From: Urechidicola croceus
Lineage (GTDB): Bacteria > Bacteroidota > Bacteroidia > Flavobacteriales > Flavobacteriaceae
NCBI RefSeq assembly: GCF_001761325.1
Contig: NZ_CP017478.1
Coordinates: 1,943,501 to 2,007,500, forward strand
Reading direction: 5' to 3'
DNA length: 64,000 bases
Shown: positions 46,572-49,252 of the stretch, one piece after another
Layout of the letters: the number at the start of each line of letters is the position of its first letter
Numbering within the stretch: position 1 is the first letter of the stretch
Program-made: the position numbers and the translations under genes
The notes under the pieces: model-generated
Databases searched by the model: none
What the model saw: only the letters and a program-made list of their open reading frames with translations
Told to the model about the DNA's origin: nothing

Positions 46572-47927
46572 TTATTTCTTTTTATTACGCTTATTATAAT
46601 TTTTATCTCCTCTAGTTTTGGGTTTTTTATATTTCTTGGCAATCTCTCTACGATATGAACCTCCTTGATTGGTTTTACTATTCTTTTCACTTTTTTCATG
46701 AAACGCAGGCCCAGGAGCATCTAAATCATTTTTCTTATGAGGATTGTTTATTTCAACTTCTTTAGGGCGCTCTTCAGGTGTTAATTGATCTGAAATTTCA
46801 ACTTCAATTGGAAATTCAATAGTTGGAATTTCGTATTTCATTAACCCCTCTATTGACTCTTTTAATTGCTTTTCTCTTTCTGTAAAAAATAAGATTGTTT
46901 TACCCTCATGTTCTGCTCTACCGGTTCGTCCAATTCTATGCATATAATTTTCTGGAAAACTAGGAGTGTCAAAATTTATTACATGACTTATTTCGTCAAG
47001 ATCCAATCCTCTTGCCATTACATCAGTCGCTACTAAAATCCTATTTTCACCTGCATCAAATTGTCTTATAGAACGGATTCTATAATTTTGGGTTTTATTA
47101 GAATGAATGACACATAATTCAGAATCATATATTTCTTGTAAAGCTTCAAATAACCTATCAGCACTTTTTTTATTAGAAACAAAAACTAATACTTTGTTAA
47201 ATTCATCTTTATCTTTTAGTAGATGGATTAGCAAATTAACTTTTGTATAAAAATTAGGTACACTATAACCTTGTTGAGAAATATTATCAAGAGGTGTTCC
47301 ACTTACTGCAATTGAAATTTTTTCTGGCACAATGAAATAATCATTGATTAATTTCTCCACATCATCGGTCATTGTTGCAGAAAACATAATATTTTGTCGA
47401 CGTTCAGGTAAAATTTCAAATATGTTCATCAATTGAAAACGAAAACCTAAATCTAACATCACATCCACTTCATCTATTACCAATTTCTGCATTGATTTTA
47501 ATTTTAATGCTCTACTTAGTGCCAAATCATACAGTCTACCGGGCGTAGCTACAATTATATCAATTCCTTGTGCAATTGCTTGTTTTTGAGTGTTTATATT
47601 GGTTCCTCCATATACTCCCAAAACACGAACATTAATATATGTAGATAATTTTTCTATTTCTTCAACAACTTGTAGAACTAACTCACGAGTAGGTACCAAA
47701 ACTAAAACTCTTGGAGTTAATTGTTTTGAGAATTTTAACTCTCTCAAAATAGGTAGCATGTAAGCAAATGTTTTACCAGTACCAGTTTGTGCAATTCCAA
47801 CCATATCTTTACCAGAAAGAATAACTGGGAAAGATTTTTCTTGAATAGGAGTTGGATTAACAAATCCTAAATCATCAATTGCATAGTTTAATTGATTTGA
47901 TAAATTAAATTCTTTAAAAGTGCTCAT
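46572..47927 (-). CDS. DEAD-box family ATP-dependent RNA helicase (DEVD variant)
   Basis: 451 residues. Q motif NPTPIQ, motif I AQTGTGKT, Ia PTREL, II DEVD (Val in place of Ala), III SAT, IV VLVFVSNK, V ARGLD and VI HRIGRTGR. A basic C-terminal tail (from about 400) is rich in Lys and Arg, as in RhlE-type helicases that bind rRNA or mRNA. Its promoter TATCTTTG lies 17 bp before the start. Confidence 0.93.
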   Translation of the reverse strand: MSTFKEFNLSNQLNYAIDDLGFVNPTPIQEKSFPVILSGKDMVGIAQTGTGKTFAYMLPILRELKFSKQLTPRVLVLVPTRELVLQVVEEIEKLSTYINVRVLGVYGGTNINTQKQAIAQGIDIIVATPGRLYDLALSRALKLKSMQKLVIDEVDVMLDLGFRFQLMNIFEILPERRQNIMFSATMTDDVEKLINDYFIVPEKISIAVSGTPLDNISQQGYSVPNFYTKVNLLIHLLKDKDEFNKVLVFVSNKKSADRLFEALQEIYDSELCVIHSNKTQNYRIRSIRQFDAGENRILVATDVMARGLDLDEISHVINFDTPSFPENYMHRIGRTGRAEHEGKTILFFTEREKQLKESIEGLMKYEIPTIEFPIEVEISDQLTPEERPKEVEINNPHKKNDLDAPGPAFHEKSEKNSKTNQGGSYRREIAKKYKKPKTRGDKNYNKRNKKK

Positions 47928-47943
47928 TGACTAAAATTTTGTA

Positions 47944-47951
47944 CAAAGATA
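47944..47951 (-). promoter_or_regulatory. -7 promoter box of the helicase gene (TATCTTTG)
   Basis: The minus strand reads TATCTTTG, downstream of the first small-RNA candidate's terminator, so helicase transcription is independent of it. Confidence 0.65.
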
Positions 47952-47990
47952 AGGTATATAATTAACTGAATCTGGCATTTCTACTAAAAC

Positions 47991-48062
47991 AAAAAAACCT
48001 TCAAGTTTCCTTGAAGGCTAACAAATAATTTTTAAGATCCCAAACACTCAAAATTATCTATA
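47991..48062 (-). ncRNA. candidate structured small RNA, copy 1
   Basis: About 70 nt on the minus strand. A promoter box TATATTTG (48066-48073) is followed by stem 1, AUAAUUUU pairing AAAAUUAU (48050-48057 with 48025-48032), with a 17-nt loop containing GAGUGUUUGGGAUCUUA. Stem 2 is CCUUCAAG-GAAA-CUUGAAGG (47998-48017), then seven U: an intrinsic terminator. A second copy with the same layout lies at 48216. The frame holds no convincing ORF. Confidence 0.65.
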
Positions 48063-48065
48063 GCC

Positions 48066-48073
48066 CAAATATA
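48066..48073 (-). promoter_or_regulatory. -7 promoter box of small-RNA copy 1 (TATATTTG)
   Basis: TATATTTG on the minus strand, 9 bp before the first stem. Confidence 0.6.
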
Positions 48074-48123
48074 AATAATTACTTCGACATGTTAAAAAAA
48101 ATAATCTTAATTAAATAATTGAC

Positions 48124-48193
48124 AATCTATTATTTACAATTATTCTCATAAAATATTGTTGCTTTTCATATGTTTCATGGCAAATAATAGATT
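48124..48193. repeat. 12-bp perfect inverted repeat between the two small-RNA copies
   Basis: AATCTATTATTT (48124-48135) is exactly complementary to AAATAATAGATT (48182-48193) across 46 nt, and a short nested pairing ACAAT/ATTGT lies inside. No T run follows on either strand. It could be another RNA structure or a small mobile-element remnant. Confidence 0.45.
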
Positions 48194-48215
48194 AAAAAAA
48201 ATATTTAAAAAATAA

Positions 48216-48285
48216 GAAAACCTTCAAGTTTCCTTGAAGGCATTTTCAAATAATTTAAAGAACCCCAAATACTCTAAATTATTTA
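48216..48285 (-). ncRNA. candidate structured small RNA, copy 2
   Basis: Same layout as copy 1: promoter box TATATTTG (48289-48296), stem 1 AUAAUUUA pairing UAAAUUAU (48275-48282 with 48250-48257), 17-nt loop with GAGUAUUUGGGGUUCUU, then terminator CCUUCAAG-GAAA-CUUGAAGG (48221-48240) and UUUUC. The last base pair of stem 1 has switched from U-A to A-U relative to copy 1 while pairing is kept. Flanking DNA differs, so the conserved part is the RNA unit itself. Confidence 0.65.
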
Positions 48286-48288
48286 CTT

Positions 48289-48296
48289 CAAATATA
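48289..48296 (-). promoter_or_regulatory. -7 promoter box of small-RNA copy 2 (TATATTTG)
   Basis: TATATTTG on the minus strand, 7 bp before the first stem. Confidence 0.6.
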
Positions 48297-48343
48297 ATTA
48301 ATTAACTGAAAATGAACAATTTTGACTGTTAAATTGTTTAAAT

Positions 48344-48361
48344 ATCACGGAAAACCGTGAT
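48344..48361. promoter_or_regulatory. perfect dyad ATCACGG-AAAA-CCGTGAT
   Basis: A 7-bp arm, four-base spacer and complementary arm lie between the dockerin-like gene's stop and the small-RNA promoter, centred about 60 bp upstream of that promoter box. The core matches the dyad at 4512-4525. It could be an activator site, or a weak terminator of the dockerin-like gene; there is no T run. Confidence 0.42.
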
Positions 48362-48390
48362 GAAAAATGGAGTTAATTAACTAAGAATAC

Positions 48391-49197
48391 CTATTCTCCT
48401 ACTCCAATATTCGGAATTAATAAATTAGACAAGTCAATATTTTGAATTTGGCTATTCATATCTAAATCTGCATTAGAATATGATGATTGTCCTAATGAAG
48501 GTATAATAGCTGATAAATCTGAATTTTGAATTTGACCATTTCCGTCTAAATCACCAGATGGCATAGCAAAATTATTATTACCTAAATTCACTAAAATACT
48601 AGTACCATCGAGAATCAAATTAGGATTATTTCGCAAATCTAGAAATGTTATTTCATTTTCAAGAAAGATAGTCTCATTAGTAATAATATTTAAATGATTA
48701 CGATGGCATATTCTTATATAGTATTCATTTTCTTCTATTGAAAATTGCAAACATGATGTACCATCTGTAGATACTAAGTCTCCATCACGTTGTAACAATG
48801 CCGATTGCGATGAAATAAGCACCGATATATCGTCTTTATTCCTTATTTCAACAAACACCCAGTCAACAATAGCATTTGGGCCTGTAATATCAAATATAGA
48901 AGCATCACATGTAGTGTAATCATCATATGGAGAATTTATTGGTAGCAAACCATTCACACGAATATTATCTCTCATTAAATTTTCTTCTCCATGATTTGGA
49001 TTTACAATTGCTCCTTGTAACAAGAGTTTAATTGCAATATGAACTCGAGGAGTTAAACTAAACTCATTTTCTTTTAGTAAATTGTTATTTGATTGTATTT
49101 CACTTGAAATTAATTCGGATTTATTAATTTCAATTTGAGCTTCAGAAAAACCTATGGTAAAAAATACCATAACTGCCATAAATAGTTTCTTTTTCAT
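48391..49197 (-). CDS. secreted protein with dockerin-like EF-hand repeats
   Basis: 268 residues from ATG 49197 (MKKKLFMAVMVFFTIGFSEA signal peptide); the upstream frame is leader only. The middle domain contains IKLLLQGAIVNP, AIVDWVFVEIRNKD, SALLQRDGDLVSTDG and YYIRICHRNHLN, a pattern I know from large surface proteins of Bacteroidota. The C-terminus has two dockerin-type calcium loops, DLDGNGQIQNSDL and DLDMNSQIQNIDL, and stops at residue 268 with no T9SS domain. A 9-bp dyad lies upstream at 49231-49252. Confidence 0.75.
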   Translation of the reverse strand: MKKKLFMAVMVFFTIGFSEAQIEINKSELISSEIQSNNNLLKENEFSLTPRVHIAIKLLLQGAIVNPNHGEENLMRDNIRVNGLLPINSPYDDYTTCDASIFDITGPNAIVDWVFVEIRNKDDISVLISSQSALLQRDGDLVSTDGTSCLQFSIEENEYYIRICHRNHLNIITNETIFLENEITFLDLRNNPNLILDGTSILVNLGNNNFAMPSGDLDGNGQIQNSDLSAIIPSLGQSSYSNADLDMNSQIQNIDLSNLLIPNIGVGE

Positions 49198-49230
49198 AAT
49201 AGTAAGAAGTATTAGGTACACATTTTTATT

Positions 49231-49252
49231 CCAATTTTGCAATCAAAATTGG
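49231..49252. promoter_or_regulatory. dyad CCAATTTTG-CAAT-CAAAATTGG
   Basis: Nine-base perfect arms around CAAT, 34-55 bp upstream of the dockerin-like gene start. The position suits an operator; no regulator is identified. Confidence 0.42.

Follow-up and report, generated by a model that had tools for sequence, protein, structure and literature searches.

Two tandem units beside a DEAD-box helicase gene

The window analyzed in this study is a 64,000-nucleotide stretch of the Urechidicola croceus genome (G000:C1:1943501-2007500; the genome, designated G000, is a single 3.43-Mb contig). Two units of about 75 nt each, 225 nt apart, were located on the minus strand between a 283-aa ORF and a DEAD-box RNA helicase gene; each comprises a hairpin and a terminator. 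All features described in this section are on the minus strand. The upstream ORF (48391..49242) had no Pfam or NCBIfam match; C-terminal DLDGNGQIQNSDL / DLDMNSQIQNIDL repeats were noted in it by eye, and we take these to be dockerin-like. The downstream helicase gene (46572..47927) was matched to PF00270 (E = 1.5e-49) and PF00271 (E = 3.6e-33).

Unit 1 (U1) is preceded by the operator-like palindrome CACGGTTTTCCGTGA (48345..48359), the sole ACGG-N4-CCGT in the window, which is positioned 50 bp before the -7 box. The -33 TTG (48317..48319) and the -7 box TATATTTG (48289..48296) form a promoter with the full core, TTG-N20-TATATTTG. The hairpin (48248..48284) was identified by folding and recovered by the covariance model R1 described below; an A/U-rich stem of 13 bp encloses the loop UAUUUGGGGUU (48261-48271), and the terminator CCUUCAAG-GAAA-CUUGAAGG with its U-rich tract follows at 48211..48240. 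For unit 2 (U2), the -7 box TATATTTG is present (48066..48073), with neither a TTG at the corresponding distance nor a palindrome. Its hairpin, also identified by folding (48023..48059), features one bulged A and the loop UGUUUGGGAU (48037-48046); the U1 loop holds GGGG and the U2 loop GGGA. The terminator of unit 2 has the same stem as that of unit 1 and a U tract (47991..48017). The pair is bounded by the -7-like box of the DEAD-box gene (TATCTTTG, 47944..47951), which lies outside the RNAs, downstream of the second terminator and 17 nt before the ATG.

An initial annotation of this DNA had described two structured, paralogous, non-coding minus-strand RNAs at this place, and that description was supported. 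Both units fold better than their dinucleotide shuffles (for unit 1, z was -3.8 and -5.2 using two cuts; for unit 2, -3.9 and -3.5), and further family members are present elsewhere in the genome and in other members of the genus (Urechidicola-like Flavobacteriaceae). When the two units were aligned, the score was 87, compared to no more than 27 in 200 shuffles; there were 75 matches in 93 columns, and the identity over ungapped columns was 86%. The upstream flanks, which had been called unrelated, aligned with a score of 19 (shuffled mean 18, maximum 29). The terminator stem is indeed shared: exact copies of a terminator 21-mer are found only at U1 and U2 in the 3.43-Mb genome (none for the reversed control), and two near copies, with 2 mismatches, are located at a second unit pair. 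No start-codon-initiated, stop-free frame spans either unit, as had been claimed.

Other details had to be amended. The stem had been given as 8 bp, which is too short; in unit 1, GAG pairs with CUU and the stem is therefore 13 bp, and in unit 2 a bulged A is accommodated. The proposed common core, GAGUnUUUGGGnUCUU, is exact in unit 2 only; unit 1 carries one extra U (GAGUAUUUGGGGUUCUU) and is scored at 2 mismatches. Because 9 of 100 shuffled windows also yield 2 matches at that tolerance, the core word alone was regarded as weak evidence. Both units had been credited with promoters of their own, which holds in full for unit 1, and for unit 2 as regards the TATATTTG box.

Searches of Rfam 15 returned only a tRNA at the gathering level for the window. 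In the region 47930-48400, the best row at E <= 10 was PyrG_leader, with 29.5 bits of the 65 needed; there was no row for Flavo-1 (which we take to be RF01705), and nothing approached a gathering score, so the suggestion that the units might belong to a described class such as this one was not upheld. The window units also gave no row at E <= 10 for FopS (RF04319, gathering score 56 bits), the only FopS row being one of 23.8 bits in a separate array (L307, described last). Nothing at the gathering level was found for the home locus (L013 2290-3150), the type C locus or the eight-unit array discussed below.

Relatives in the genome and the genus

Several paralogous short units, each with its own terminator, are present in the genome: four of type A (U1-U4; loop UnUUUGGGGUU, slightly altered in U2) and two of type B (B1 and B2; loop GUGGGGA). 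The exact core TAATTTnGAGTnTTTGGG occurs at four genomic places, namely at U1 and U2 in the window and at U3 and U4 at 3.33 Mb, 1.3 Mb from the window pair. Only exact matches to this core were considered informative, because 12 places were found when up to 2 mismatches were allowed, compared to 11 for the reversed control. Core matches fell in five stretches, and one of these (L062) was set aside as a likely chance occurrence within a coding region. At 3.33 Mb, the units lie between fabH and a gene for a 744-aa outer-membrane barrel (PF14905). There, U3 and U4 alternate with the two type B hairpins, which have the loop GUGGGGAG and different terminators.

The covariance model R1 was built from U1-U4 and used to search 149 relatives, as had been recommended in the initial annotation. 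Strong matches (E from 9e-11 to 8e-7) were obtained in four genomes only (G009, G002, G008 and G005); all are in the genus, and all have the match in the slot between fabH and the outer-membrane barrel gene. A location by the DEAD-box gene, as in the window, was not seen in the relatives. Because the R1 relatives all occupy the fabH slot, the window pair represents a second location; on this distribution, the window units are relocated copies, and the gap between fabH and the barrel gene is the home of the family in the genus. A row was returned for 60 of the 149 genomes, mostly through weaker R1 matches (E from 5e-4 to 0.1), which were taken as chance matches to terminators. Two of them were inspected by sequence (G010:C8 and G008:C95), and neither resembles the family.

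FabH was recovered in 12 of the 14 genus genomes (all but G003 and G007, in which it was not found), and the slot was compared across these 12. The slot contains A,B,A,B in G000, A,B in G005 and G008, and A in G002 and G009. One hairpin is found in G013, where a new stem (AUUUUAUA/UAUAAAAU) carries the loop GUUGUGGGGACA, and one in G012, with the loop AUUUUGGGGAA on yet another stem (GAAUUUAAAC/GUUUAAAUUU); in both, the GGGG of the loop is retained.

Across the five distinct type A sequences, the loop and the 3' arm are invariant. Four pairs vary in the 5' arm, with A or G opposite U, and pairing is always kept; all of these changes are one-sided. The covariation originally proposed is thus confined to one base pair within the window pair, there being no two-sided change among the five type A hairpins. 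By sequence comparison, the stronger structural evidence is furnished by relatives whose stems differ and yet remain paired. In a test with the seven hairpin types, own arms had a mean energy of -5.7 kcal/mol, compared to -2.0 kcal/mol for 42 swaps; U1 and B2 have a common 3' arm, and hence swaps between them fold well (down to -7.2 kcal/mol).

The family was not found outside the genus, either with R1 in the 149 relatives or by a word search in 249 Flavobacteriaceae genomes. In the latter, GAGTnTTTGGGGTT was present at 35 places in 28 genomes, compared to 48 places for the reversed control. Twenty-seven of the places are outside the genus; 21 of these fall in long frames, and none of the other 6 has a TAnnTTTG box in the preceding 100 nt. 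Given that the outside occurrences are either in long frames or without a box, the word search does not extend the family beyond the genus.

An operator-like palindrome and a NarL-type regulator

The palindrome was searched as the 17-mer ACGGTTTTCCGTGATAT, which has five exact genomic copies; no copy with a single mismatch turned up, and the reversed control gave none. Four of the copies precede U1, U3, B1 and B2, and the fifth lies upstream of a pilin-like gene at a distance of about 190 bp. A sixth place was found with the form CACGG-N4-CCGTG-A, just before a gene for a NarL/LuxR-type response regulator (REC + GerE; C1:1514303-1514965); two genes for TPR histidine kinases come after it. The six palindromes of the genome are therefore distributed over four family units, one regulator gene and one pilin gene; U2 and U4 have none. 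Of the 11 promoters of this regulator gene examined in the genus, 10 have the palindrome (the exception is G007), as does one of three from other genera (present in G016, absent from G333 and G015). A shuffled 230-bp region holds such a palindrome at a frequency of 6e-5.

The distance from the end of the palindrome to the TAnnTTTG box was determined for 26 palindromes, each belonging to a unit or a regulator gene. It was 48-51 bp in 18 cases (50 bp for unit 1), 73-74 bp in 4 and 25 bp in 3; the one palindrome without a box is that of the G012 slot. The distance used for the G009 slot refers to the box with the full core, although another box stands closer, at 38 bp. The spacings change in steps of about 24 bp, and palindromes are doubled or tripled with a period of about 24 bp. 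From the window's own box density, a 4-bp slot is expected to contain a box with a probability of 0.0035. TTG-N20-TAnnTTTG is the core in most promoters examined. The predicted operator is thus placed, by sequence, at a fixed position before the units other than U2 and U4. Because the distance to the box is fixed with steps of about 24 bp, the palindrome would behave like an activator site, and a mere terminator is unlikely. Outside the genus, occurrences of CACGG-N4-CCGTG-A are single, scattered and no commoner than those of reversed controls; one exact 17-mer was found in G304 (L027), adjoining a different gene.

The distribution of slot units follows that of the regulator. Units are present in the slot in all 7 genomes with an intact regulator, i.e. 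one that is full-length and without stops (G000, G002, G005, G008, G009, G012 and G013, six genomes besides our own having units), compared to 1 of 5 without (one-sided Fisher test, p = 0.010, in which kinship is ignored). In G001, the matched part of the regulator contains six stops, and what is left in the slot is a decayed remnant that lacks both GGGG and the palindrome. In G006, a draft that is 69% complete, the DNA-binding part of the regulator is missing and the slot is empty. No regulator was found in G004 or G011, and their slots are empty. The one genome with a unit and no regulator found is G010 (a draft, 78% complete), in which a type B-like GUGGGGAC hairpin is present and an ACGG-N4-CCGT with one mismatch is retained in the slot. 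As a side observation, the reading frame of the receiver domain in G006 (L110, G006:C71) continues into that of a MurQ-like protein, by either a deletion or an assembly join.

Through the copy of the palindrome before the pilin-like gene, type IV pilus-like machinery is linked with the system, and the NarL-type regulator may also govern genes of this kind. The pilin-like gene is followed by genes for a small protein with no Pfam match (presumably a prepilin peptidase), a PilB/GspE-type ATPase (PF00437, E = 3.6e-130) and a PilQ/GspD-type secretin. The operon of pilin, ATPase and secretin behind the palindrome occupies L169 621-5114 on the minus strand. The same palindrome was also noted after pilC in G008 (L164, about 4600) and G003 (L158, about 1540).

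Type C units, proposed function and alternatives

The genome was searched for complements of the loop at up to 1 mismatch, and these are not enriched (88, compared to 99 for the reversed control). Three exact complements lie outside the RNAs, and none of them is at a gene start. Two further exact sites led to a third kind of unit, type C, which comprises the hairpin GAGUCUUUGGGGUUG / GUAAAUGAGUCUUUGGGGUUGAUUUAUUUAUAACUCGA and a terminator. At least 10 type C units are present in the six genus genomes searched, all of which have them; the units are in tandem in four. A LytS-type kinase gene and an ORF of 81-85 aa are neighbors in 6 of 6 genomes, and a CYTH-like gene follows the units in 4 of 6. 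In G000 and G013, the cluster is headed by a LytTR response-regulator gene (PF04397, E = 7.6e-20 in G000). The type C locus has no ACGG palindrome. Words like ACCGTTTAT are found upstream of the type C boxes at about -82, -61 and -40; at least 2 words, spaced in register by 21 or 42 bp, precede 9 of 10 units, and the remaining unit has just one. Direct repeats spaced by about two turns of the helix are bound by LytTR proteins.

Since type C adjoins LytS/LytTR genes and such repeats, the loop word UUUGGGGUU is found under two regulator classes, and two unrelated regulators appear, from the sequences, to drive RNAs sharing it. The type C cluster would be a candidate for a complete circuit of its own. 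Tentatively, and with somewhat less than even confidence, we suggest that NarL-type and LytTR-type systems each evolved or recruited tandem sRNAs with UUUGGGGUU and thereby converged on one target at the RNA level, be it mRNAs or a protein. It would be unusual for two classes of regulator to converge on a single loop word, and a common target is predicted by such convergence. The LytTR regulator, the LytS kinase(s), the small conserved ORF and the tandem type C RNAs were seen as one cluster at L202 763-5485 and in L203.

For the target search in our own genome, 75 of 80 one-mismatch complements of the loop were classified; the five left out are near regions already examined. Of these sites, 25 are in the sense of frames and 39 are antisense; 8 are near a frame start, and only 4 of these 8 have a plausible ATG no more than 35 nt downstream (L247, L270, L276 and L283). 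The best candidate for a target is the L283 site, which as a single site is not beyond chance: AACCCCAAAU directly precedes the ATG of a gene for a secreted protein (L283/L308) and complements the U1 and U4 loop over 11 nt. In G008 and G003, UCCCCAC, which is complementary to the type B loop, is found in the first codons of a histidine-kinase gene after pilC; this gene has no close ortholog in our own genome. No conserved target was found in these searches.

Sequence comparison establishes a family, a conserved loop on diverged stems, an operator at a regular spacing that is also found upstream of the regulator gene, and the joint occurrence of regulator and units. We consider it probable that the units are a family of small regulatory RNAs, that unit 1 is controlled by the NarL-type regulator and that the loop pairs with C-rich mRNA starts. 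The regulator (REC + GerE, encoded beside TPR histidine kinases) would bind CACGG-N4-CCGTG and, from this fixed distance, would switch on unit 1 at its TTG-N20-TAnnTTTG promoter; unit 2 would be a companion copy without an operator of its own. Each transcript would stop at the terminator of its unit, and the G-rich loop (UnUUUGGGGUU in type A, GUGGGGA in type B) would be presented on a rigid A/U stem. The most likely mode of action is base-pairing of the loop to C-rich stretches where a few mRNAs begin, by which translation would be blocked. Transcription and binding by the regulator are inferred from position and co-occurrence; pairing is suggested by the invariant, single-stranded word and by analogy with FopS and LhrC. 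With a probable regulator, a site, a spacing rule and a conserved loop all named, each step is testable.

The units could alternatively titrate an RNA-binding protein in the manner of CsrB or RsmY/Z, by offering many copies of a G-rich loop on rigid stems. The UUUGGGG word is invariant on differing stems, it occurs in many copies under two regulators, and its complements are not in excess, all of which would suit such a function. The regulator class also resembles GacA/UvrY, as 133.3 bits were scored with NCBIfam NF007018, but this is below the UvrY/SirA/GacA cut-off of 280 bits. Moreover, the 3' arm of type A is invariant and the 5' arm changes only from A to G, a constraint that exceeds what a loop-binding protein needs. 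Titration would account for the same facts and is the foremost alternative; we regard it as rather unlikely, at roughly one chance in a few. It is very improbable that the palindrome only serves the upstream gene as a hairpin or terminator, with the units being passive, REP-like repeats that have no regulatory function: CACGG-TTTT-CCGTG can form a short hairpin and the units are repeated in tandem, but the promoter spacing is fixed, the palindromes are multiplied with a regular period and precede the regulator gene in nearly all genus promoters, the slot is conserved and syntenic, and units are lost or decayed in genomes with a broken regulator (G001, G006) and in those in which none was found (G004, G011). 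A role for the units as 5' leaders or attenuators of the DEAD-box gene, which lies just downstream on the same strand, is scarcely credible, as two terminators and then the gene's own TATCTTTG box intervene (by this arrangement, the units are not terminators of the DEAD-box mRNA either) and the relatives found with R1 and in the slot sit elsewhere, by fabH. Short open stretches are present, as in any sequence, but each unit has stops in all three frames and there is no common peptide, so peptide coding has a negligible probability.

Small-RNA families under a response regulator are well known elsewhere. In the RsmX/Y/Z and CsrB/C systems with GacA/UvrY, several sRNAs are governed by a NarL/FixJ-type regulator, with an upstream palindrome and repeated G-containing loop words; the operator, the loop word and the RNA architecture are unlike those of the window family. 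Qrr1-5 are paralogous sRNAs at separate loci that are controlled through a fixed operator by one response regulator, LuxO, in a sigma-54 system, whereas the window family has the TTG-N20-TAnnTTTG promoter and there was no Qrr match to the window in Rfam. The regulatory RNAs of the Flavobacteriaceae are little described. In the openly licensed literature searched, there was no response-regulator-driven sRNA family in the Flavobacteriaceae, nor were this sequence family, its operator or the double control found there.

Among the described sRNAs, FopS of Bacteroides comprises paralogs that pair at translation starts, as presented in the available part of PMC11697453. It is from the same phylum, and it too is a set of multicopy paralogs (about 65-70 nt) with their own terminators and sigma-ABfr-type promoters; however, the FopS seed is in the 5' part, whereas the constraint in the window family is in the loop and 3' arm, and no response regulator is named for FopS in that part of the source (PMC11697453). 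LhrC1-5 of Listeria, according to the available text of PMC4132741, is a multicopy sRNA wholly dependent on the two-component system LisRK and recognizes its targets by short loop motifs. The loop word there is UCCC, a mirror case of UUUGGGG here, and sequence, host and regulator class are unrelated (PMC4132741). Rfp18 of Flavobacterium psychrophilum, also a flavobacterial sRNA, is conserved beyond its species, and it is described with a third stem-loop that pairs with metalloprotease mRNAs (PMC9723704).

A third array, of eight short units with terminators and a different promoter type, may belong to the same network. It is located at L307 8160-10257 on the minus strand (G000:C1:2108159-2110256), and each unit stands behind TGTGAC-N-GTGTCAT, which by eye resembles a promoter for an alternative sigma factor. 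Two units are identical, with the hairpin GUGAAUUUGGGGUUCAC (UUUGGGG loop), and two are C-rich (CCCCAC, CCCCGCUCU). Pairing between the G-loop RNAs and the C-rich units E4 and E5 was not beyond that of shuffles (best z = -1.8); two z values below -3 were obtained with other units and involve long A/U-rich stretches. Elsewhere in L307 (183-5705), near-identical frames of 90-91 aa recur every ~290-310 bp, opposite a probable gene for a long repetitive protein.
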